A stretch of 21,854 nucleotides of DNA. It comes from a virus. The stretch spans positions 1 to 21,854 of IMG/VR virus record IMGVR_UViG_3300031673_006931. One strand, 5' to 3'. A program made the translations under genes and the position numbers. Shown piece after piece: positions 1 through 21,157 of this stretch. Below the pieces are notes generated by a model. The model was given only the letters and a program-made list of their open reading frames with translations. It did not search any database and was not told where the DNA came from. Within the stretch, counting starts at the first letter, position 1. Each line of letters opens with the position of its first letter.

Positions 1-2388
1 TACAGGATCGGCTCCCATATCAATGTTCAGATTTTGAATGGTGAAGTCTGACACATCATTCATTGCAAAAACAAAATAGCGTTTCACATTTGCAACAGCA
101 CTTCCTGTAGCACCACTAAGAACATTTAGCCATTTGGTAGCTGGTTCCTTGCCCCATAGATATAGCTGTATGAGACTCGTAGGCACTCCACCTGATGCAT
201 CACCAAGGAATGTAATGTTGTCGCTAGTGATGTTAAAAAGGGAAGATGCTATACTCTCACCACTCTCTATCTCTGGATAGCCCCCTACAATGTCTACGTC
301 TGCATCTGTAGGCCAGACATCCCATGATCCGGCTGGAATGTATATGATGCCCCCTCCTGCTGCCTGAGCAGCCGTAAGAGCAGCATTTATAGCAGGCCAA
401 TCATTAAGACCATCACCTGATACAGCACCTCCCGCATATGACCCATTAGTAATATTGTATGTTAATTTCTGTCCAGCTCCTAGTGTTGTGGTTGTTCCTG
501 CCCCGTAAAGCCATGTCCCAAACGTGGGTGCGGTGCCGTTCTGGTAGTGGTCGGAAAGATTGGTGACTACCCCCACACGATAATAATAGGTGGTTCCTTC
601 TGCCAGTCCATCAATGTCCACATAATTGTCAGCATTGATTCCGAGAAAACGGAAGGTGCCTGCTCCTGTGTTATCAGCAGCTTGGTTATTCACCATAGTA
701 GTTGGTTTCACAAAGTTGGTGGTGGTGCTACGTTGTATCACCCACGGTTTACTCCATGTTTCTGCGTCTGTCCATGTAAGTGACAATGATCTGTGTCCTG
801 CTTCAGCCACGGTCATATCGTATTCAGGGGTAACTCCATCTGATGCTTGCACCTGTTTGGTAGTAGCACTTGTTAATCCTGCATTATCCGTCACTGTAAG
901 ACCAATCGTGTAAGTTCCTACAGTATCATAAATATGAGATGTTGTTACACCTGTTCCTGTGGATGGTGTAACTGTAGCTTCTGATTGTGCATCCGCTATC
1001 TGTTGTGCTCCAAAGGCATCAGCTAATGGGACAGTCAGTTTTAGGTCGGTCCAGCTAAGGGCATCATTCGATCCTTGTATCTTTATCTCTGTGGGTGTCC
1101 AACCTCCTACATCTGCACCTGTAAATCGTGCTCGGTAATCAATGCTCCGAATTGTTTTAGGGGATGTAAGTTCTACATAAATCCATCTGTAATTGCCACT
1201 TGTTGCCGTAAAGCTATCCCAATAAAGTCCACTACTACTACTTTCTCCATTAAATGCATGTTGATTCTCATTCAATCCTGAGACGGAAAATGCATCTGCA
1301 AAAGAAGCACTAAATTCATCTGTCCCTGTCCAATCATCCGACTCATAGCCAGCAATGTTCCATATGGCCCAACGCGCTCCAGCATCATAACTGTCTGCTG
1401 TGGCTTCAAACCTGTAATACGTGTAGGCTTGTGCATCGGCTGTGGTGTCATCAAACGTCCAAGCATAGGAAGCTATAGTTCCGTCTGGATCTGTTGAAGC
1501 ACTGGCATCCACGTTCACTGTAAGAGGAATGTTACCACTCGTGGGCGTAGCTGTGAATAAGGCTACGGGGGAAGCTGGAGCAGCAGCCACCTCTATTTGC
1601 TTCGTGGTGACGCTGGTTAATGTATCGTCGTCCGTCACCGTGAGCGTTATAGTATAGGTGCCTGCTCCTGTAAATGTTGTGCTGTCCGTTGATCCGGTGC
1701 CGCTTGCTGGGCTTCCTGTGTCAAAGTCCCATACATACCCCGCTGGGTCAGCTATTGTGCCGTCAGTGTCGTATGAAGCAGAAGCATCCACGTTCACTGT
1801 TAAGGGACTCGTGCCTGTTGATACGTCTGTAGTGAAGGAAGCTACAGGGTTTGAATTAACTACAGGTGTTGTGACATTCACTGTCTTTGGCTGCGTAATA
1901 GACGTTGCCCCATCATCGTCTGTCACCACTAAGACAATGGAATAGTTACCTGCTGATGTGTAATTGTGAGTGGAGGTAGAACCACTGGTGGTAGTGCCGT
2001 CGCCCCAATTCCATGAATAGCTTGCTATGGTGCCGTCGCTATCCGTCGATGTGGTGCCGTCTACATTCACTGTTAATGGAAAGTCACCTGTCGTTGGCGT
2101 ATAAGTGAAGAACGCTTCAGGAAATGCGTTTTGAGCTACAGGAAGCGGATTATCGCCAGGGTAAGGGTCTGGATTAGGCTCTGTATAAGCAGGAGGCCAT
2201 AAAACACTACCATTAACTATGAGATTTCCATTGATGATAAGGTTTCCATCTATTGTAAGCACAGCCTTACTAGCACTTGATCCTTCTAGGCCGTCCGTGT
2301 CAGGAGTTGGATCAGGCGTATTCTCTATAGGATTATCCTGCGCAAACAGGAAGAGAGGAAAAAGGAATACTATTAGTAATAAGCGCAT
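1..2388 (-). CDS. Secreted-type multidomain protein: signal peptide, PKD repeats, F5/8C-like domain, FN3, pectate-lyase beta-helix (partial, 3' end missing)
   Basis: Reading the minus strand from the ATG at 2388 gives 796 codons without a stop to the window edge, so the C-terminus is missing. Residues 1-17 (MRLLLIVFLFPLFLFAQ) look like a Sec signal peptide. PKD 1 is at about 91-172 (key YSWNWGDG, then GNYSIVLVVTDDDG). PKD 2 is at 179-270 (YVWDFD, GTYTITLTVTDDD). PKD 3 starts at 274-316 and resumes at 473-516 (GTYTIGLTVTDNAG). Between its halves lies an F5/8C (discoidin, CBM32-like) domain with WIYVEL and EIKIQGSNDALSWTDL. An FN3-like domain covers about 527-640 (LTWTD, YVDIDGLAEGTTYYYRV). From 657 the opening of a Pectate_lyase_3 beta-helix follows (SGDGLNDWPAI, GGGIIYIPAG). 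The start is set by a TAATG junction with the upstream tailspike stop. It probably binds and cuts surface polysaccharide. Whether it is a virion spike or a secreted enzyme is open. Domain calls rest on motif recognition, not a database search. Confidence 0.85.
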   Translation of the reverse strand, partial: MRLLLIVFLFPLFLFAQDNPIENTPDPTPDTDGLEGSSASKAVLTIDGNLIINGNLIVNGSVLWPPAYTEPNPDPYPGDNPLPVAQNAFPEAFFTYTPTTGDFPLTVNVDGTTSTDSDGTIASYSWNWGDGTTTSGSTSTHNYTSAGNYSIVLVVTDDDGATSITQPKTVNVTTPVVNSNPVASFTTDVSTGTSPLTVNVDASASYDTDGTIADPAGYVWDFDTGSPASGTGSTDSTTFTGAGTYTITLTVTDDDTLTSVTTKQIEVAAAPASPVALFTATPTSGNIPLTVNVDASASTDPDGTIASYAWTFDDTTADAQAYTYYRFEATADSYDAGARWAIWNIAGYESDDWTGTDEFSASFADAFSVSGLNENQHAFNGESSSSGLYWDSFTATSGNYRWIYVELTSPKTIRSIDYRARFTGADVGGWTPTEIKIQGSNDALSWTDLKLTVPLADAFGAQQIADAQSEATVTPSTGTGVTTSHIYDTVGTYTIGLTVTDNAGLTSATTKQVQASDGVTPEYDMTVAEAGHRSLSLTWTDAETWSKPWVIQRSTTTNFVKPTTMVNNQAADNTGAGTFRFLGINADNYVDIDGLAEGTTYYYRVGVVTNLSDHYQNGTAPTFGTWLYGAGTTTTLGAGQKLTYNITNGSYAGGAVSGDGLNDWPAINAALTAAQAAGGGIIYIPAGSWDVWPTDADVDIVGGYPEIESGESIASSLFNITSDNITFLGDASGGVPTSLIQLYLWGKEPATKWLNVLSGATGSAVANVKRYFVFAMNDVSDFTIQNLNIDMGADPV
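973..1440 (-). other. F5/8C (discoidin)-like domain inserted within PKD repeat 3
   Basis: Encodes residues 317-472 of the PKD protein. YYRFEATADSYDAGARWAIW opens it. NQHAFNGESSSSGLYWDSF and NYRWIYVELTSPKTIRSIDY follow, then EIKIQGSNDALSWTDL closes it, the order seen in F5/8C/CBM32 domains. The flanks (YAWTFDD before, GTYTIGLTVTDNAG after) are the two halves of one PKD domain. Confidence 0.7.
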
Positions 2389-4865
2389 TAGAATCCGTGG
2401 CTTTTAATATCTATTGTGTAAAATTGAAACGCATCTGAAGCATTGTCTACCGTGGCCAATAGCTTTAATTCAATATCACCATCAGTTATGTCGAGTGCAT
2501 GAATACCATTCACCTGTGATGTTGTTGAATTATTCCAATAAGTTCCATGAGAAACCTGTCCTCCAAATCCTGTGCAGTTGATTTCAAATTCAGCTCTGAA
2601 TGAACCAGTTTGTCCAGCCGTCCAAGTCATAGTAACTGGTGTGACTGTAGCACTATCATTATTCATCGTGAACTTAACTGTCTTAGCATCGTTAGTAGAG
2701 CTACCTGTTACCAATCCAGCTAGAACAACTTTAAATCCACCATTCTCATCAATCCTATCAACAGGAATAGTGGCACTCCAAATAGTTGTTTCACTGGTAG
2801 TGCCTGTGTGATCGCGACGATAAGAAGACTGATGGATCAATTGAGCATTATTAGAAATATTATCTCTCACCACACTAGGGAAAGTTAGAATATCAGTTCC
2901 GTATAGCTTCCATTTCACGGCGGCTAAATCCGTAGAGAAGGTTCCAGATGTATGTTCAACCAAGCAAATGTATCCCACATTAGACACTTTAATCACATCC
3001 CCTACTAAATATATCTTACTCGTCACCCAATTCTGTGTTGTATGTGCCACTCTGGAATACGTCTTATTGGTTCCAATTATAATATTGTCAGTGATTATAT
3101 TGTCTCTAGCTCTGCCCACTTCTGCAATTGCATGATGTGAAACTGTAGGAGCAGTTAATTGAGACCAATTCATGACACGATTATTGGTGATGATACAATA
3201 GTTAGCTGCTACAGAAATAGCATTTACACTGGCGTTAATGACATCGCAATTATCAACAATTGATCCTGTGGCCGCTAAAGATAAAGCAATACCACTTGAT
3301 CCTCTGTTTCCTCCATTAACAAATGTGTTAGTGATTTTATTACGCTTTCCAGCAACCCAGATAGAAGGGTGATCAGAACTAGCACTTACCAATGCCCACT
3401 TCACTGCTGTTAAATCGGTAGCAAAGGTTCCAGACGTATGAGCCTCTAAACATCTATAAGAATTTCCTCCATTTGATACAGTGTCATTTACAATATAGGC
3501 AGTGGACGTAACCCACAATGGAGTGGGGATATAATTTACACGGCAATTATCGACGATGTTATCGTGAGCACCTTCCTCGTTTAACCAGATGGCAGACACA
3601 GGGCTTTTGCCTGCATCTGCTGGCTTAGTCACCCGTATGTTTGTAAAAGTATTTTCGTTACATAAGTAGGCAAATTCTAAGCCTTCTTCCCTTGTCTCAA
3701 TACGTATATCTGTAAATTCACAATAAGCACTTGGATCAGCACCAATACCTGTTCCTGTTTTCATACTTACATTGCGAATCCAGCTCTTGTATGCTGACAC
3801 ATAAATACCATATCCCCAGCCTTTGTCATATGCATCAGATGTGGTTTCCAGTCTTAGGTTTTCAATTCCCGCATTGCTGATACAATAAGGAATCTCTGCA
3901 TTCTGGCCTGGTGACAATGTTCCAGTGTTAAGAACTTTCACTACTGGACTTCCAAATGCCGTAGCGTCTGTTACGTAATCATCTCGTAGTGGTTGTTCAA
4001 AAAACACTTGAGCTCCTATGATTTTAGTAACCTTAACAATGACAGAACTTAAATAATAATCAGCTAATTGGGGTGCTGCACCAGCACGTTTTCCAGAATT
4101 GCTACGTTGGCCATCTAATACTGCAATTAAATCTCCAACTGCAAAAGCAGACGCATCTCCTAACGTATCAAGAGTGACATAATTATCCCCCATAGAAGCA
4201 TCCTGTATGTCATACCCTGCCTCGGAGAATACATCTGTAACTCCATCAATCCCTGTGTATGTTCCAAAAAGAATGGATGTAGTGCTCCAAAACAAACCTG
4301 TGCTAAGATTTGTGTTACTAATAATTGTGCTATCACCATCACCGCGAAGGACAGTGTTATCCCTCATTAAAATGTGATCGCTAATATTATAAGTTCCAGC
4401 AGGAAGGTATAAAACACCTCCACCTATTCCTTCTAAATAGTCTAATGCGGTTTGGATAAATGTCACCTCATCCTGAACTCCATCCCCTTTTGCGCCACCC
4501 CAAAGAGCATTAACAGGTGTAGTGAAAGTTCTAATTAAACGTCCTGTAACTACTGTGTCTGCTTTAAATACAGACAATCCATCGGCTGTAGTAGTGGATG
4601 TGGAGTTCCAAAATAAATCAGGTCCAAACTTTCCATCATTAGCTGTGTGATAACCATTGCATTTAACCCTCGCACCATTGGCCACCTGTGAGAAATCAAA
4701 GGCTTCCATCTGTGCCACCGTATCAAACTCTAATTGTGCTCTGCCTGATACAACACCATTAACTGTGACATTCTCAACAATAAGCGTGGTGTTATCCCAT
4801 GTGCGTATAACATCCTGTCCAAAAAGGAATGTGGGAAGAAGGAATAGAAGGAATAGTTTTTTCAT
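2388..4865 (-). CDS. Tailspike, pectate-lyase-like beta-helix with signal peptide and two inserted carbohydrate-binding-like modules
   Basis: This 825-aa protein is probably the receptor-binding or depolymerase spike. Residues 1-17 (MKKLFLLFLLPTFLFGQ) form a Sec-type signal peptide, unusual for a spike. Residues about 45-115 are the region common before spike beta-helices (FDTVAQMEAFDF, GRLIRTF). Residues 118-185 match Pectate_lyase_3: WGGAKGDGVQDE, GGGVLYLPAGTYNI and LRGDGDSTII. A run of beta-helix rungs follows to about 680 (repeated N-x-I and V-D-N-C patterns). Two modules of the W-x(4)-Y...Y-x-C-x(3)-HTSGTF-x-TDL-x(3)-KW type interrupt the rungs at 451-493 and 613-655. The last 135 residues look like a beta-sandwich cap. 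The gene overlaps its neighbours by 1 nt on both sides (TAATG), with the anchor-protein gene just upstream. Catalytic residues cannot be assigned from the sequence alone, and an adhesin without enzymatic activity is possible. Confidence 0.85.
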   Translation of the reverse strand: MKKLFLLFLLPTFLFGQDVIRTWDNTTLIVENVTVNGVVSGRAQLEFDTVAQMEAFDFSQVANGARVKCNGYHTANDGKFGPDLFWNSTSTTTADGLSVFKADTVVTGRLIRTFTTPVNALWGGAKGDGVQDEVTFIQTALDYLEGIGGGVLYLPAGTYNISDHILMRDNTVLRGDGDSTIISNTNLSTGLFWSTTSILFGTYTGIDGVTDVFSEAGYDIQDASMGDNYVTLDTLGDASAFAVGDLIAVLDGQRSNSGKRAGAAPQLADYYLSSVIVKVTKIIGAQVFFEQPLRDDYVTDATAFGSPVVKVLNTGTLSPGQNAEIPYCISNAGIENLRLETTSDAYDKGWGYGIYVSAYKSWIRNVSMKTGTGIGADPSAYCEFTDIRIETREEGLEFAYLCNENTFTNIRVTKPADAGKSPVSAIWLNEEGAHDNIVDNCRVNYIPTPLWVTSTAYIVNDTVSNGGNSYRCLEAHTSGTFATDLTAVKWALVSASSDHPSIWVAGKRNKITNTFVNGGNRGSSGIALSLAATGSIVDNCDVINASVNAISVAANYCIITNNRVMNWSQLTAPTVSHHAIAEVGRARDNIITDNIIIGTNKTYSRVAHTTQNWVTSKIYLVGDVIKVSNVGYICLVEHTSGTFSTDLAAVKWKLYGTDILTFPSVVRDNISNNAQLIHQSSYRRDHTGTTSETTIWSATIPVDRIDENGGFKVVLAGLVTGSSTNDAKTVKFTMNNDSATVTPVTMTWTAGQTGSFRAEFEINCTGFGGQVSHGTYWNNSTTSQVNGIHALDITDGDIELKLLATVDNASDAFQFYTIDIKSHGF
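2901..3029 (-). repeat. Carbohydrate-binding-like module, tailspike copy 2
   Basis: Encodes tailspike residues 613-655: WVTSKIYLVGD, GYICLVEHTSGTF, STDLAAVKW. Built like phage modules resembling CBM5/12 (aromatic-rich, 40-45 aa). At DNA level the part around 2908-2954 is close to 3394-3440, suggesting recent duplication. Confidence 0.65.
3387..3515 (-). repeat. Carbohydrate-binding-like module, tailspike copy 1
   Basis: Encodes tailspike residues 451-493: WVTSTAYIVND, SYRCLEAHTSGTF, ATDLTAVKW. It interrupts the beta-helix between rungs ending VNYIPTP and resuming HPSIWVAGKRNKITN. Confidence 0.65.
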
Positions 4866-5749
4866 TATGAACTGAAATAAAATATTAGGTCAGAAGGTGT
4901 CTTGGTTGTTTTAACAATGATTTTTACAGTGACGTCCCGTGTAGCGGTGAGGGCAGTTCCTACAAGATTTATGATCACAAACTTTCCAATAGCCGTTATT
5001 GTAAAATCAACAGCTTCTGCCCCTGCCTTCCCACCAAGAATATTATCGGTGTTAGAAATGATAGTGGTGGAATCACCGCTCACATCTGTAATCAAATATT
5101 TCCTTATTCTATGACTTCCAAGAGCATTTACCACCCCATGTATCTCTATTTCTGTAGAAGTGTTAGAAATCGTGACGATAGACAAGCAAAGAGGCAGTGT
5201 AGAAAACGCTGTCATGCTGTATGTTCTACTTCCTGAGCCTGTCCCAGCCAATATCTCATCAAGGCTCTGCACCGTGGGATCTCCAGCGGCATCAAAGGCA
5301 AAATATTTATCCTTCCTTACAGAGCGCAATGGAAGTTCCTGGGCACCTGCTGTCTCATCCTCAGAAGGAGGAAACTTTAAACTTCTGTCTAATTCCTCCT
5401 GTTGTTGCTGGTCTATCATTCTGGCCTTGTCATGCCCGTCCTCATTCGTCTCTGGAGGAAACTTAGTGTTAGAAACATAGTTTCCTGTCTGTGTAAGAGG
5501 AACAGACCGTCTGATGGTCATGAAGTCGCCTATGGCCTGTCCTATGAACGTCACTGTGCAACCAGCCTCTACACCTACGTCTGACACGGTGTAGTCTGCG
5601 CTAGAGCCCATAGTAAGCGTTGTGTCTACAGCCGCCCTTGTTCTGATGACAACAATGTTAGAGGCTTGTTGAACGTGTATCTGCGTAGCCACTGCGTCTG
5701 TTCCTGTAGCTAGTGTTACCTGTTTCTTAAAATTTGTAGACGTTACCAT
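4865..5749 (-). CDS. Tail fibre/spike anchor protein with T7 gp17-type N-terminal domain
   Basis: This 294-aa protein likely attaches the receptor-binding proteins to the tail tube. Residues about 30-127 follow the N-terminal pattern of T7-like fibres and podovirus spikes: DYTVSDVGVEAGCTVTF, then TIRRSVPLTQTGNY, then a helical stretch with DKARMIDQQQQEELDRSLKFP. This pattern is usually followed by a clause like LPLRSVRKDKYFAFDAAGDP, seen here at 139-159. The remaining 130 residues are beta-rich and unrecognised; they may hold a small domain or the docking site for the next protein. There is no long receptor-binding part, so this is effectively an adaptor whose distal function is moved to the two downstream genes. 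It ends in a TAATG overlap with the tailspike start. No Shine-Dalgarno sequence precedes the ATG, but a TATAAT box lies in the 40-bp gap upstream. Confidence 0.75.
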   Translation of the reverse strand: MVTSTNFKKQVTLATGTDAVATQIHVQQASNIVVIRTRAAVDTTLTMGSSADYTVSDVGVEAGCTVTFIGQAIGDFMTIRRSVPLTQTGNYVSNTKFPPETNEDGHDKARMIDQQQQEELDRSLKFPPSEDETAGAQELPLRSVRKDKYFAFDAAGDPTVQSLDEILAGTGSGSRTYSMTAFSTLPLCLSIVTISNTSTEIEIHGVVNALGSHRIRKYLITDVSGDSTTIISNTDNILGGKAGAEAVDFTITAIGKFVIINLVGTALTATRDVTVKIIVKTTKTPSDLIFYFSS

Positions 5750-12198: not shown

Positions 12199-15100
12199 TT
12201 AGAATATCTTATATTTTACTATAAGAGAAATAATACTAAGTGGTAAGGGTTGCTTCTGTGAAATAATAATTTTGGGATCATTGTTTTCCGGTTCGTCACC
12301 TAATGTAGAGTTCCAATTGATACGCTTCTCTCCCGTAAACACCGGAACAGCTACGTCCATAAGATCTTCTGTAGAATTAAATGGATGAACGTCTTCAACC
12401 GTTCCATTGCTAATAGAGCAACCTACAGACTTATTAACCCGCAGATTAATCTCTGAAATCATTTTCTTATGACCTTGGCTACTTCCAATAATACTGTCTA
12501 TGTCCAATCGCATTGGCTCATATACAGAATAATAAGGGATGCCAGCATTGATTAAAACAGCAGGAGTGGATATTAACACTTCGCCTGAAGAATCTACCGT
12601 TGCATTATTCTGCGGACTTCCATCACCTAAAATACTCACTTCTTCACCAGCCAAATGCAATAGACCTGTCACTCTGTTTGAAATTACAGTTCCCATAACT
12701 GTAGAACTTCCAGGATTAGGAGCTATAGCAATAGTGAATTGATCGTCTGCGGGAATAGTTAAAATAACAGCATTGGCCTTATTGTATTCCGATGGGGCCA
12801 TACCGTCTAAAGTAACTTTATCTCCCACCTGTAAGCCATGATCTGAGGCAGTTGTATAAGTGGCTATGTCCGCTGACCATGTAGCAGCAGTAATGTCTAG
12901 GTTATTATTATATTCTAACCCACAATCCACATAATATGCATCTCTGATTTGAGTCCATGTATCAGGAGAAAAGTATTCTACAAATCTCTTAAGGGTTCCC
13001 GATAAATTACGCCTCACTGTGTTATAAACTACATCATTATCGCTCCCCCGTAATATCGCTACACTTTCATAATCTGTTTCATTAGTGCTCATTGCTGAAG
13101 TGAAGCTGCTCCATCCGGCAATGTTTTCATCTCTACCATACACAAGGACACCCATATCGCCGTTGCCCATAACACAATAGATGTATGGTTCTCTCAATTG
13201 AGAGTAAGCAATATCGACAATGCCTCTTTCAGCTATTTCATCATTGAGCCTGTTTAAATCGTTCGCTTTGTAGCCCCCTGTAACCCCCGCTGTGAAGTCG
13301 TAGGCTATTTCGCGAAGTCTACGTCCATTACGTTCCACTCCGGCGAATATAGGGCCGATTATGCGAGGTTTAATGTGGTTAAATCCAATGGCTTCCTGTG
13401 ACCTGTAAGCAGCATTAGTGGGTGTAATAGGAAGGTCATCAGACCCAGAAGAAAGGATTCCATATTCTTTTCCTGTTCCAATCAAAATACTCTTACCGCC
13501 TATAATCCATTCAATAGGATTTTGCTCTGTAGCAGGAATACCATAGGAGAATGCATGGGTGTCATTGATGCCGTATTCAAAGTTGTAAAATTCTCCTATC
13601 CTCGATCCCCATATCTTTAAGGGCTCATCAATATTACCGGCATACACAATACGCTGTTCATGCATGTCACAGGTTCTTGGATAGCCTCGTCTTGGCGACC
13701 AACTGGATTCAGCCCATAAGTCTGTGGCTCTTGTTGATTCAAATTGGTCTACTACAAGAACATCTGCTATAGTATCACCTCTATAGGTGGTCATCTTCCC
13801 ATAGCCATAAATATAAGCAGAAACAGCTTCTAATGTAGCAGTGGCTTCGTAGGTCGAAGTAGGCGTATGTGCTCCAGATCCCGATCCATCTGTAATTTGT
13901 GCGCTGTCTGAATATATAAGTTTTAAATCAGCAGAGACTTCATTGGTTCCGGTGGCTAATAATGCTCGACGGCCATCTCTTACAATAGCCTCATAAACTG
14001 TTTCTTCGATAGCTGTTACAGGATCAATTCTCTTCACCTGTATCTTGCCGTCAAATGCACCTTGTGTTGATAAGGTCCAATCGCCTAATACATTAGTAAG
14101 CGTAACATTGCCGTTAGTTGGCGTGTTTGCTGTGTTTAGCAATTGTAATTCTACACTTTGTGATTCTCTCCGATGACCTAAACGATAATGACCATTTACA
14201 TTTGCTGTAGTGAACACTTCTATCTTCTCCCAATTGGCAGCAGCCAAGTCTGTAGAGAATGTGTTTGATGTGTGAGCAGCTATACATTTGTAAATACTCC
14301 CATATACAGATGCCGTTGCTGGTGCTGATACAAAAGTTCCTGGGTCTGGTGCTGTAACAACAATTGTGGTGGCTGTAACAGCATCTACAGGAAGTTGTGT
14401 AATATTGTAGAGAGAAGGGTTTACCCCTCTTACAGATATTATATCCCCTGTATTAAATGGATGACCAGCAGTCACCGTAAATGTTATTTGTCCAGCAGTC
14501 CACGAGCCTCCAGTGATGATAGCCTGCAATTGTAAATACTGCTCCACTTTATAATAAGTGGCTGTAGCCCATCCAGGGGCTTTTGCTTGCAACTCCACGG
14601 TAGTTCCAGCTCCTGTAGTGCCTGTTGGCTGCAATGTTATAGCTGAAACATTCTCATCCCTGAATGGAGGCAGATCAAATACAATAGGGGCTATGTCAAA
14701 TGTTGGAGTGGTGGTGAGTCTGCGTAAAATATATGGCTCATAGTCTTTGTGTGTCAGATAGACAACATCATTAACCTGCCTGCGTTGCACTTTCCTTAAA
14801 TCAGCTTCCGCATAGGGAGTTACTAATTCAAGGGGTTGAGTGACTTCTCCTGGAGTTGTGAGAACTCCTGGATAGGCTACAGGACCTTGTAACGTAAATT
14901 GATTAGCCGCTGGAATGCTTAGCACCCTGCCTGAAATGTTATAACCTGTAGGAACTAACCCTGATACTGTTACATCATCGTCTACGCCAAGAACATGATT
15001 AGTTCCTGTAGTGTAAGTGACAACACCTCCAACAGCCCATGATATTGCTGTAACCGTGTTAGCATCTCCAGCAACTCTGGAATACCCATCATAGAAACGT

Positions 15101-15363
15101 AAATAGTTTTCACCTGCCTCGATTATATATCCTACCTCAGAGGAATATTGAAATTCCCATACTACAGCAAATCCATTGTTCTTGGTGTTATTGATATATT
15201 TACTGCCTGGTCGCCTCTCTATCATCCCATATGGACGAATAAGAAAGTTCTCTAACTGTCTACAGGCATAGCTGTATTTCTCAAGGTCTATGCGACCGTC
15301 CAGCTTGGACGACCATATACCACTATTAAAATTAAGAAGGCTCTTTTGTGTTTTTCTAGCCAT
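12199..15363 (-). CDS. Tail tube protein B (T7 gp12-like, enlarged by inserted beta modules)
   Basis: I place the start at the ATG at 15363 (MARKTQKSLLNFN, 1054 aa), sharing one base with the upstream stop (TAATG), rather than at an in-frame ATG 33 nt further upstream. Residues 5-60 carry the podovirus nozzle signature: NFNSGIWSSKLDGRIDLEKY, then LENFLIRPYGMIERRPGSKYI. T7 gp12 is 794 aa. The excess is explained by three FCCH-like repeats (about 104-166, 286-353 and 825-893) and a carbohydrate-binding-like module (265-381) like those in the tailspike. The conserved core resumes with QFESTRATDLWAESSWSPRRGYP (540-562) and HEQRIVYAGNIDEPLKIWGSR (568-588). The protein forms the distal tail nozzle to which fibres attach. 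The surface modules could help adsorption. Confidence 0.88.
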   Translation of the reverse strand: MARKTQKSLLNFNSGIWSSKLDGRIDLEKYSYACRQLENFLIRPYGMIERRPGSKYINNTKNNGFAVVWEFQYSSEVGYIIEAGENYLRFYDGYSRVAGDANTVTAISWAVGGVVTYTTGTNHVLGVDDDVTVSGLVPTGYNISGRVLSIPAANQFTLQGPVAYPGVLTTPGEVTQPLELVTPYAEADLRKVQRRQVNDVVYLTHKDYEPYILRRLTTTPTFDIAPIVFDLPPFRDENVSAITLQPTGTTGAGTTVELQAKAPGWATATYYKVEQYLQLQAIITGGSWTAGQITFTVTAGHPFNTGDIISVRGVNPSLYNITQLPVDAVTATTIVVTAPDPGTFVSAPATASVYGSIYKCIAAHTSNTFSTDLAAANWEKIEVFTTANVNGHYRLGHRRESQSVELQLLNTANTPTNGNVTLTNVLGDWTLSTQGAFDGKIQVKRIDPVTAIEETVYEAIVRDGRRALLATGTNEVSADLKLIYSDSAQITDGSGSGAHTPTSTYEATATLEAVSAYIYGYGKMTTYRGDTIADVLVVDQFESTRATDLWAESSWSPRRGYPRTCDMHEQRIVYAGNIDEPLKIWGSRIGEFYNFEYGINDTHAFSYGIPATEQNPIEWIIGGKSILIGTGKEYGILSSGSDDLPITPTNAAYRSQEAIGFNHIKPRIIGPIFAGVERNGRRLREIAYDFTAGVTGGYKANDLNRLNDEIAERGIVDIAYSQLREPYIYCVMGNGDMGVLVYGRDENIAGWSSFTSAMSTNETDYESVAILRGSDNDVVYNTVRRNLSGTLKRFVEYFSPDTWTQIRDAYYVDCGLEYNNNLDITAATWSADIATYTTASDHGLQVGDKVTLDGMAPSEYNKANAVILTIPADDQFTIAIAPNPGSSTVMGTVISNRVTGLLHLAGEEVSILGDGSPQNNATVDSSGEVLISTPAVLINAGIPYYSVYEPMRLDIDSIIGSSQGHKKMISEINLRVNKSVGCSISNGTVEDVHPFNSTEDLMDVAVPVFTGEKRINWNSTLGDEPENNDPKIIISQKQPLPLSIISLIVKYKIF
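12685..12891 (-). repeat. FCCH-like repeat C in tail tube protein B
   Basis: Encodes residues about 825-893. Key features are ASDHGLQVGDKVTLDGMAP, then SEYN, then a FTI strand and a closing STVMGTV. The same order (H, GD, V-x-G, YN, F-T, P-G) occurs in repeats A and B of the same protein. The similarity to the ubiquitin-activating-enzyme FCCH family, which is often matched in phage tail proteins, is from memory of the family pattern. Confidence 0.6.
14221..14571 (-). repeat. Split carbohydrate-binding-like module in tail tube protein B
   Basis: Encodes residues 265-381. The first part is GWATATYYKVEQYLQ (264-278). The second part (357-381) is IYKCIAAHTSNTFSTDLAAANW plus three residues, matching the tailspike modules almost residue for residue. 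The two parts are separated by about 80 residues containing FCCH-like repeat B, whereas the tailspike copies have only about 15 residues there. Confidence 0.6.
14305..14508 (-). repeat. FCCH-like repeat B, nested in the carbohydrate-binding-like module
   Basis: Encodes residues about 286-353. Key pattern: AGHPFNTGDIISVRGVNP, SLYN, TTIVVTAPDPGTF. It resembles repeats A and C and lies between the two parts of the module at 14221-14571. Confidence 0.55.
14866..15054 (-). repeat. FCCH-like repeat A in tail tube protein B
   Basis: Encodes residues about 104-166. Key pattern: GTNHVLGVDDDVTVSGLVP, GYN, a short turn, NQFTLQGP. It is the first of three related repeats in this protein. The GD of the other copies is replaced by DD. 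Confidence 0.55.
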
Positions 15364-15959
15364 TATCCAGGTTGTATTTTTCTGGCTGCTATCCAAGGGC
15401 TATCCCCTACAGGATTATAAAATCGTTTGCGACGTTCGTTAGCGTCTATTTTTTGTGCTTCTGGCAAATCAACACGCTTAAATCGTTCTGCCAAGAATCC
15501 ACCAAGTTCTGTGTCTTGTGAAAGACGAAAGGCTAATTTACTAGCCAATAATGTAATGACGCATCTACGCAATAATGGGTCCCATTGTGGGACATTCTCA
15601 TTATAGCCTATATATGTAATTTTACAGGAGGTTGCGTCTGTGAGAATATCTCTACCCTCAATCTCGTAATAGTCTTCTTTGTAATTTGATGTGTCGTCGT
15701 AGCCGTTCACCGTCATAAGCCTTACACATTGTGTAGGGAGGGTGTAGCTATAATCCCATCCAAATACAGGAGTGTCATTTAAGGCTAATTGCTGCCTGGC
15801 TTTTAAACAATTCCAAGGATGCAAGCGCATCACTTGTCTAGCTGTAGGCTCGAATAACAACTTACAAGAACGAGCTGCGTCATTCGTTGTATCATTAATG
15901 TCTACGATGACACTCTGACCTATTTCTGCTAGGGCTTCGTTGCAAATGGATGTGGGCAT
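15363..15959 (-). CDS. Tail tube protein A (T7 gp11-like)
   Basis: A 198-aa protein, close to the 196 aa of T7 gp11. It forms the adaptor ring between portal and nozzle. The family pattern is clear: ICNEALAEIGQ at residues 5-15; a Cys/Leu helix with ARQVMRLHPWNCLKARQQLAL at about 40-60 (key HPWN); GWDYSYTLPTQCVRLM at 67-82; YYEIEGRDILTD at 97-108; WDPLLRRCVITLLASKLAFRLSQ at about 125-147. It is the first gene after a hairpin terminator downstream of the capsid genes and shares one base (TAATG) with the tail tube B start. No Shine-Dalgarno sequence is seen before its ATG. Confidence 0.9.
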   Translation of the reverse strand: MPTSICNEALAEIGQSVIVDINDTTNDAARSCKLLFEPTARQVMRLHPWNCLKARQQLALNDTPVFGWDYSYTLPTQCVRLMTVNGYDDTSNYKEDYYEIEGRDILTDATSCKITYIGYNENVPQWDPLLRRCVITLLASKLAFRLSQDTELGGFLAERFKRVDLPEAQKIDANERRKRFYNPVGDSPWIAARKIQPG

Positions 15960-16479: not shown

Positions 16480-17376
16480 TTACAGACCTTCAGAACATTT
16501 AACAATAATAGAGCTATTGTTAATACGACATGAGCCTAGTTTAACGGAAGGACGAATCTGAAGAGCATGTGACATCTGTGGAAGCACGTCCATATGAGTC
16601 TTCATAGCTGATTCGGCGAGAATAATGTCTTTCTTACAAAAAGCGAGACATTGACGATCATTGAGGTCAGAAGGATCATAGGTTAAATCCTCATACTGAA
16701 TCCAAGTGTAACCAGCCCAGAACGTGCCGTGAATCTGGCCGTTTCTTACAAGCATGGTGTTTGCATAGTCCCGATCAGTTGCTTGAGCAATAGACATAAG
16801 GGCTTTCTTCTGGTCAGCACTAATAGCAAAATATCTACCGTCCAAAGGAACACGTAGCTGATCTTGCAGGCTAGTTGCTTCCGTCACTTTCCACCAAGTC
16901 AGATTTTCATCTGTAGCAGCGGTTTCAGCATCGGCTGCAATTACATTAGCGGCTGGGAATGTTTCAGTGGTTCCACCAGATTCACCCGTTATGCGAGTGC
17001 CTTGGATGGCGTTTCTTACGTATTCGTCACGGAGACGATTGTAAGCGGCTGCTTGGTCCTGCATAATGCGGGAGGTGGGCAATACAATAGATGCCAAGAA
17101 CTCATTGTCCCATTCATCTTGTAGAATTGGCGCGTCCCATTCTTCAGGAGTTAGCCAGCTTTTAGACGTAGAGTAATCGACGTAGGTAGTTTCAGGATAG
17201 CGGGCGGTCTTACGCTTGTAAGTAACCGTTCCACCAATGTTATACCATTTGCGATCACCCGTTGCGGTGTCGGGAGTAGCACCAGGAACCATCCGAGCTT
17301 CGGCGGTCTGTAATGCACTTACCCAGGAGTCATCCCACGTATCAGGGAAATGCTCAGGAATTGTAGGTGTGGACAT
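16480..17376 (-). CDS. Major capsid protein (HK97-fold, Phage_capsid_2-like)
   Basis: A 298-aa protein forming the icosahedral shell. The order of elements fits the podovirus capsid family: TTYVDYSTSKSWLTP (residues 63-77); QDEWDNEFLASIVLPTSRIMQDQAAAYNR (86-114, key D-x(6)-LASIV); DEYVRNAIQGT (117-127); LQDQLRVPLDGRYFAISADQ (170-189, key RYFAIS); DRDYANTMLVRNGQIHGTFW (201-220) with AGYTWIQYE following; and a last strand pair KLGSCRINNSSIIVKC. It is neither T7 gp10 by sequence nor extended by an Ig tail. The gene follows the scaffold after a 187-bp control region. Its leader is AT-rich with a run of eight T and no Shine-Dalgarno sequence. The decoration gene follows after 21 bp. Confidence 0.88.
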   Translation of the reverse strand: MSTPTIPEHFPDTWDDSWVSALQTAEARMVPGATPDTATGDRKWYNIGGTVTYKRKTARYPETTYVDYSTSKSWLTPEEWDAPILQDEWDNEFLASIVLPTSRIMQDQAAAYNRLRDEYVRNAIQGTRITGESGGTTETFPAANVIAADAETAATDENLTWWKVTEATSLQDQLRVPLDGRYFAISADQKKALMSIAQATDRDYANTMLVRNGQIHGTFWAGYTWIQYEDLTYDPSDLNDRQCLAFCKKDIILAESAMKTHMDVLPQMSHALQIRPSVKLGSCRINNSSIIVKCSEGL

Positions 17377-20797: not shown

Positions 20798-21157
20798 TTA
20801 TGTGATAGATCCGCTCATAAACCAATGACAACACCCGCCTGCTGTCAATCCTATCCTCTCTGTGTGCTTGAACGCCTCTACGTTCTCTGGAATCACCCAC
20901 AGGAGACGTTTGTGGCCTTTAGAGGGGGCTATTACATCCCTTACATATTTAAACATCCTCACGGACGTTATAGGATGGAGGTCGTCTAAGTTAAACCACA
21001 AAAACACTGTTGGAAGCCACACCTCACTAAAGGCCCCACGTAATGCATCGCCCTCCATAAACACATGCGTCATATGAGGAACGTAATGACCTTGTGACAA
21101 CATAAGCCGATGAACAGACAATGACACCTCTGGATCTGTGATTTTAACGTATTCCAT
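20798..21157 (-). CDS. Small GNAT-like protein between terminase and virion genes
   Basis: A 119-aa protein with an alpha/beta pattern. The second half (FKYVRDVIAPSKGHKRLLWV, then IPENVEAFKHTERIGLTAGG) resembles the second half of the GNAT acetyltransferase fold, where an Asn/Ala helix precedes a 'k-x-GF' strand. A canonical acetyl-CoA loop (R/Q-x-x-G-x-G/A) is not evident, so it may be a structural GNAT relative, as proposed for T7 gp13. It shares one base with the terminase stop (TAATG) and so is translationally coupled. Activity and substrate are unknown. Confidence 0.5.
   Translation of the reverse strand: MEYVKITDPEVSLSVHRLMLSQGHYVPHMTHVFMEGDALRGAFSEVWLPTVFLWFNLDDLHPITSVRMFKYVRDVIAPSKGHKRLLWVIPENVEAFKHTERIGLTAGGCCHWFMSGSIT

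Follow-up and report, generated by a model that had tools for sequence, protein, structure and literature searches.

Tail assembly in tailed phages is known, and taught, as a cytoplasmic process. Sec signal peptides on virion proteins are familiar from the coat proteins of filamentous phages, the particles of which assemble in the inner membrane, whereas tailed particles, such as those of the phage considered here, are held to be assembled in the cytoplasm. Nozzles and spikes normally have no leader, and this includes the proteins of Bacteroidota phages that have mass-spectrometry support. In a search of literature that covered few subscription journals, no tailed phage was found with a reported signal peptide on a tail protein.

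The nearest report in the literature searched concerns the phages of Porphyromonas gingivalis (Nixviridae), which encode five Q-rule proteins of unknown function that are thought to modify the cell surface (PMC10367356). Host-type leaders are encoded both by these phages and by the window, that is, the whole stretch of 21,854 nucleotides analysed here, but in the window they are found on recognisable spikes adjoining the tail genes. A glutamine at +1 is a mark of the signal peptidase I substrates of Bacteroidota, present in more than 48% of these substrates in 332 of 334 Bacteroidetes species, with a mean of 71% (Bochtler et al. 2018, PMC5837995). The leaders of both spikes have the same shape and the same Q at +1; the substrates in that study are host proteins, while the window's genes belong to a phage tail operon.

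The tail spikes and depolymerases of short-tailed phages in which the fibre anchor is separate (branched receptor-binding systems; Carin1 Dpo31 anchor, PDB 8CK1) are similar to the window in the sequence and fold of the anchor, in the spikes directly downstream of it and in having a pectate-lyase-like spike. Their spikes are leaderless, however, whereas in the window each spike begins with a signal peptide and a short protein of its own serves as the anchor. The HTVC010P-type pelagiphages have the same gene order as the window and homologous portal, tube A, nozzle and anchor, but the census described below detected no leader on the nozzle, anchor or spikes of these phages.

No leader was found on the annotated structural proteins checked in the Bacteroidota phages phi14:2, phi18:1, phi38:1 and B40-8, the structural label being partly by similarity for the latter two. 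The pectate-lyase spike of phi14:2, which was found by mass spectrometry, is without a leader. On these records we rejected the view that the virions of Bacteroidota phages usually carry leaders; leaders are thus not general among the phages of the phylum, which makes the window an unusual case.

The tail operon and the leaders of its spikes

The window (21.9 kb) comes from a short-tailed phage and takes in most of one operon on the - strand, in the order large terminase end, portal, scaffold, major capsid protein, tube A, nozzle (tube B), three internal proteins, fibre anchor, spike1 and spike2. Among named phages, the HTVC010P-type pelagiphages and the Cobetia phage Carin1 come closest, at 24-32% identity. 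The features are as follows:

16480..17376, - strand: major capsid protein, leaderless (phrog_3437, 1.3e-37)
15363..15959, - strand: tail tubular protein A, leaderless (phrog_394, 1.7e-42)
12199..15363, - strand: tail nozzle (tail tubular protein B), leaderless, start MARKTQKSLLNFNSG (phrog_376, 1.7e-142)
4865..5749, - strand: short tail-fibre anchor (adaptor), 294 aa, without signal peptide, with N-terminal virion-attachment domain (PHROG tail families, 2.5e-12)
4863..4867, - strand: TAATG overlap of fibre anchor stop and spike1 start (sequence)
4818..4865, - strand: spike1 signal peptide MKKLFLLFLLPTFLFG, predicted cut before Q17 (G16/Q17), then QD (sequence, home-made scorer)
2388..4817, - strand: spike1 mature part, residues 17-825 and stop, with short N-terminal stretch, tailspike-type domain, pectate-lyase-like beta-helix and two CBM5/12 stretches (Pfam PF12708 1e-10, PF02839 2e-9; PHROG tail spike families 5e-10)
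4287..4499, - strand: spike1 pectate-lyase-like (PF12708) stretch, residues 123-193 (Pfam)
3432..3515, - strand: first CBM5/12 stretch of spike1, residues 451-478 (Pfam)
2898..3047, - strand: second CBM5/12-like stretch of spike1, about residues 607-656 (Pfam)
2386..2390, - strand: TAATG overlap of spike1 stop and spike2 start (sequence)
2341..2388, - strand: spike2 signal peptide MRLLLIVFLFPLFLFA, predicted cut before Q17 (A16/Q17), then QD (sequence, home-made scorer)
1..2340, - strand: spike2 mature part, cut by the contig end at base 1, with PKD repeats (PF18911 1e-41, four stretches), later a fibronectin-like stretch and a beta-helix-like start

A small gene at 20798-21157 lies between terminase and portal; relatives often have an annotated acetyltransferase gene in that neighbourhood.

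The original prediction placed Sec-type leaders on two consecutive spike-like proteins, over a range (2335-4865) that takes in the whole of spike1 and just the first 18 codons of spike2. The N-termini are exactly as quoted there, the starts are secure, and the leaders stand above shuffled controls. For the scoring we used a home-made n/h/c scorer (not SignalP), a simple rule based on a basic start, an uncharged hydrophobic core and small residues at -3 and -1. It accepts both spike leaders, which have h-regions of about 12 residues, L at -3, and G (spike1) or A (spike2) at -1; because of this G, the score of spike1 is just above the threshold. When residues 2-40 are shuffled, the observed score is reached in 0.5% of the cases for spike1 and in 0/20,000 for spike2, and none of the internal stretches of the two proteins reaches the score of the respective N-terminus. 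The leaders share 35 of 54 bases, and in both spikes a glutamine, Q17, comes right after the predicted cleavage site, as in Bacteroidota Q-rule substrates.

Each spike has an ATG that overlaps the preceding stop codon, and a scan of codons 1-25 of both genes gave no further ATG, GTG or TTG, so that both proteins are made with the leader. A leaderless cytoplasmic form, produced from a second start next to the exported leader-bearing form, would reconcile export with assembly in the cytoplasm, but a non-standard start would be needed, and such dual products are scarcely credible.

A direct host link was not found for the window. Shine-Dalgarno cores are present at 2 of its 14 starts. In Cellulophaga phages the share is 0-9%, and in seven phages that are pelagiphages, other proteobacterial phages or unassigned it is 37-62%. 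The scarcity of these cores and the Q at +1 together make a Bacteroidota host likely, as far as can be judged from such signals. The regions upstream of the window's gene starts, that of the capsid gene included, are AT-rich, and the translation starts are Bacteroidota-like.

Leaders on virion proteins of related loci

About 290 loci encoding a related nozzle were fetched and all N-termini scored with the same scorer. Among the portal, capsid, scaffold, tube A and large internal proteins of the relatives, the first census found no leader (0/644). The scorer accepted one of 201 small internal proteins and one of 75 terminases, and both look like false positives. Leaders are found on proteins between capsid and nozzle, on the nozzle itself and, in one locus (L084), on two consecutive late genes. 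Three of the 20 genes of at least 300 aa that follow an anchor bear a leader, two of them in the window and one in L005, where the leader-bearing spike comes after a short anchor. A fibre anchor is also among the leader-bearing proteins:

L073, 12561-13106: fibre anchor domain with a 21-residue leader ahead of the usual start (phrog_1640, 7e-26)

In the relatives, leaders thus recur on outward-facing virion parts, and the inner parts are without them.

A search with the leader-bearing nozzles gave 55 loci on IMG/VR contigs, from a clade that differs from that of the window, whose own nozzle is leaderless. The leader is present in 28 of 41 readable nozzle N-termini, a count in which the five seed loci are included and some rows overlap or come from the same contig. 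The leader-bearing proteins match phrog_376 at 1e-154 to 1e-188 and the Carin1 tail nozzle (8CK1) at 9e-148, and are without doubt tail nozzles, a certain virion protein. A second, leaderless nozzle was not found on the twelve contigs searched, which may be incomplete. According to the premise of the original prediction, no export is to be expected for virion proteins that are assembled in the cytoplasm. These nozzles contradict it as a general rule, and since they are virion proteins, export alone is no argument against the spikes being virion parts. The following nozzles have Sec-type leaders with a predicted cut that restores the leaderless length:

L181, 4135-7935: tail nozzle
L081, 7354-11259: tail nozzle
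L246, 10001-13819: tail nozzle
L250, 10001-13873: tail nozzle
L256, 10001-13861: tail nozzle
L257, 5769-8873: tail nozzle
L236, 9941-13573: tail nozzle
L102, 3240-7094: tail nozzle

The contigs of these eight nozzles encode one to five more leader-bearing proteins each. In L274 / L275 (5908-9106), four leader-bearing proteins in a row are followed by a leader-bearing nozzle. The nozzle is split or partly duplicated in L177 (9607-13758) and L280 (9932-14166), each piece with its own signal-peptide-like leader.

The conserved NFxxGEL motif of the nozzle is preceded by 7-9 residues in 143 of 157 nozzle loci, and the long exceptions are leader-bearing except for three mild ones. The predicted cut lies 8-12 residues ahead of the motif in 17 of 20 leader-bearing nozzles (8-11 in 16), which means that removal of the leader would give the usual nozzle N-terminus. 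This result bears on another option raised in the original prediction, namely that the hydrophobic N-termini of the spikes stay uncleaved, either anchoring the proteins in a membrane or retaining them within the virion. A hydrophobic stretch by itself would permit this, and the score of spike1 is barely over the threshold. The short leaders with small residues at the end of the h-region and signal-peptidase sites, the Q at +1 twice, and the restored length in the nozzle clade speak against it, however, and we regard uncleaved anchoring as quite improbable. Cleavable leaders with Q17 as the new N-terminus, and the export idea itself, find support in the sequence evidence.

Within the nozzle clade, the identity is 42% for the leaders as compared to 70% for the mature start, and all leaders keep the three regions. 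Leaders that have diverged and yet are intact would fit selection for export and cleavage, and are hard to explain otherwise. One could also assume that the spike leaders have no export function, being chance hydrophobic starts or unused remnants of captured host secretory genes. Just two genes are involved, and spike domains are swapped freely among phages. Against this stand the full leader and Q at +1 in each of two adjacent genes, the permutation values, and the leaders of the relatives, which are on outward parts, on none of the inner ones, and are kept in the diverging nozzle clade; leaders without function are therefore even more doubtful than uncleaved ones.

The phages with leader-bearing nozzles use Shine-Dalgarno motifs at about one quarter to three quarters of their starts, which speaks against a Bacteroidota host for that clade. 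The contig of L102 was assigned to a Planctomycetota bin, an assignment that may be wrong because the contig is only 7.4 kb. Other nozzles from Planctomycetota genomes are without a leader, and this bin does not settle the host of the clade. A more distant leader-bearing nozzle (L149, 8-1855) has its cut near LGA|QS and lies on a contig binned as Candidatus Dependentiae.

Fibre anchor, spike domains and the site of action

Upstream of spike1 lies the gene for the protein that attaches the tail fibre to the virion. A profile of this anchor retrieves Carin1 Dpo31 at 1.5e-36, and its model, which is good in the N-terminal part only, has a fold match to the fibre anchors in 8CK1 and phage LME-1, and a weaker one to T7 gp17. 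The alignment of the fibre anchors is too diverse for scanning. In most relatives a fibre several hundred residues long begins with the anchor domain, whereas in the window the protein has 294 aa and the spikes are separate downstream genes.

Spike1 combines tailspike-type domains with a place in the tail operon after the virion anchor, as expected of a virion tail spike, and spike2 has the same place. The solved structures related to spike1 by sequence are beta-helix proteins, including alginate C5 epimerases. The substrate of the spikes is presumably a sugar. Spike2 has zero cysteines in 795 residues and gave no match in PHROG or in phage records. Close relatives of the window's spikes were not present in the collections searched; pattern searches of viral contigs gave no relative with spike1 or with the window nozzle, and one locus with the window portal. 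The AlphaFold2 single-sequence model of spike1 had a mean pLDDT of 31.5 and was set aside.

On balance, we consider it probable that Sec exports the spikes, that cleavage takes place before Q17, and that the proteins act outside the cytoplasm, most likely joining the particles at lysis. They would be receptor-binding or depolymerase spikes of a Bacteroidota podovirus, with host-type Sec signal peptides that direct their export through the inner membrane during infection. Signal peptidase I would cut before Q17, the host would cyclise the new N-terminal glutamine to pyroglutamate, and the mature spikes would fold and collect outside the cytoplasm. No T9SS-type C-terminal sorting domain is found among the Pfam matches of spike1 (the C-terminus of spike2 lies beyond the contig), so that crossing of the outer membrane would need lysis. 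Lysis would mix the compartments, and the most likely outcome is that the spikes would then attach to the particles through the short fibre anchor.

The main rival is that the exported spikes stay free. They would then remove capsule or slime from infected and neighbouring cells, which would help release and spread, or they would cover receptors against superinfection. The domain content of the spikes fits this option, as secreted carbohydrate-active proteins often contain pectate-lyase, CBM5/12 and PKD domains. The leaders, with export signals that follow the host's Q-rule, are explained equally well by free enzymes, the virion spikes for which Bacteroidota phages have mass-spectrometry support are leaderless, and the five Q-rule proteins of the P. 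gingivalis phages offer a precedent (PMC10367356). What argues against this option is that the spike genes are in the tail operon, coupled in translation to an anchor that is without a receptor-binding part of usual size, that spike1 matches PHROG tail spikes, and that the relatives have leaders on nozzle and anchor, both virion parts. Free enzymes are therefore rather unlikely in our judgement; the phage would in that case secrete depolymerases from its own tail operon.

The wider proposal that in some tailed phages outward tail parts (spikes, fibre anchor, even the nozzle) are Sec precursors that mature outside the cytoplasm, and that the particle is finished there or at lysis, so that the last step of tail assembly would be extracytoplasmic, can be put forward tentatively, as a possibility. 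If it is true, part of the virion passes through the host secretion route, including a nozzle that is indispensable to the particle. Tail assembly, host range (through the dependence on host Sec and signal peptidase), lysis timing and superinfection control would then be open to direct tests.

CBM5/12-like modules are found in spike1 (2898-3047 and 3432-3515), weakly in the window nozzle (12199-15363), and in the nozzles of L018, L145, L168 and L274. As a side reading, the module may be a mobile insert common to tail proteins.
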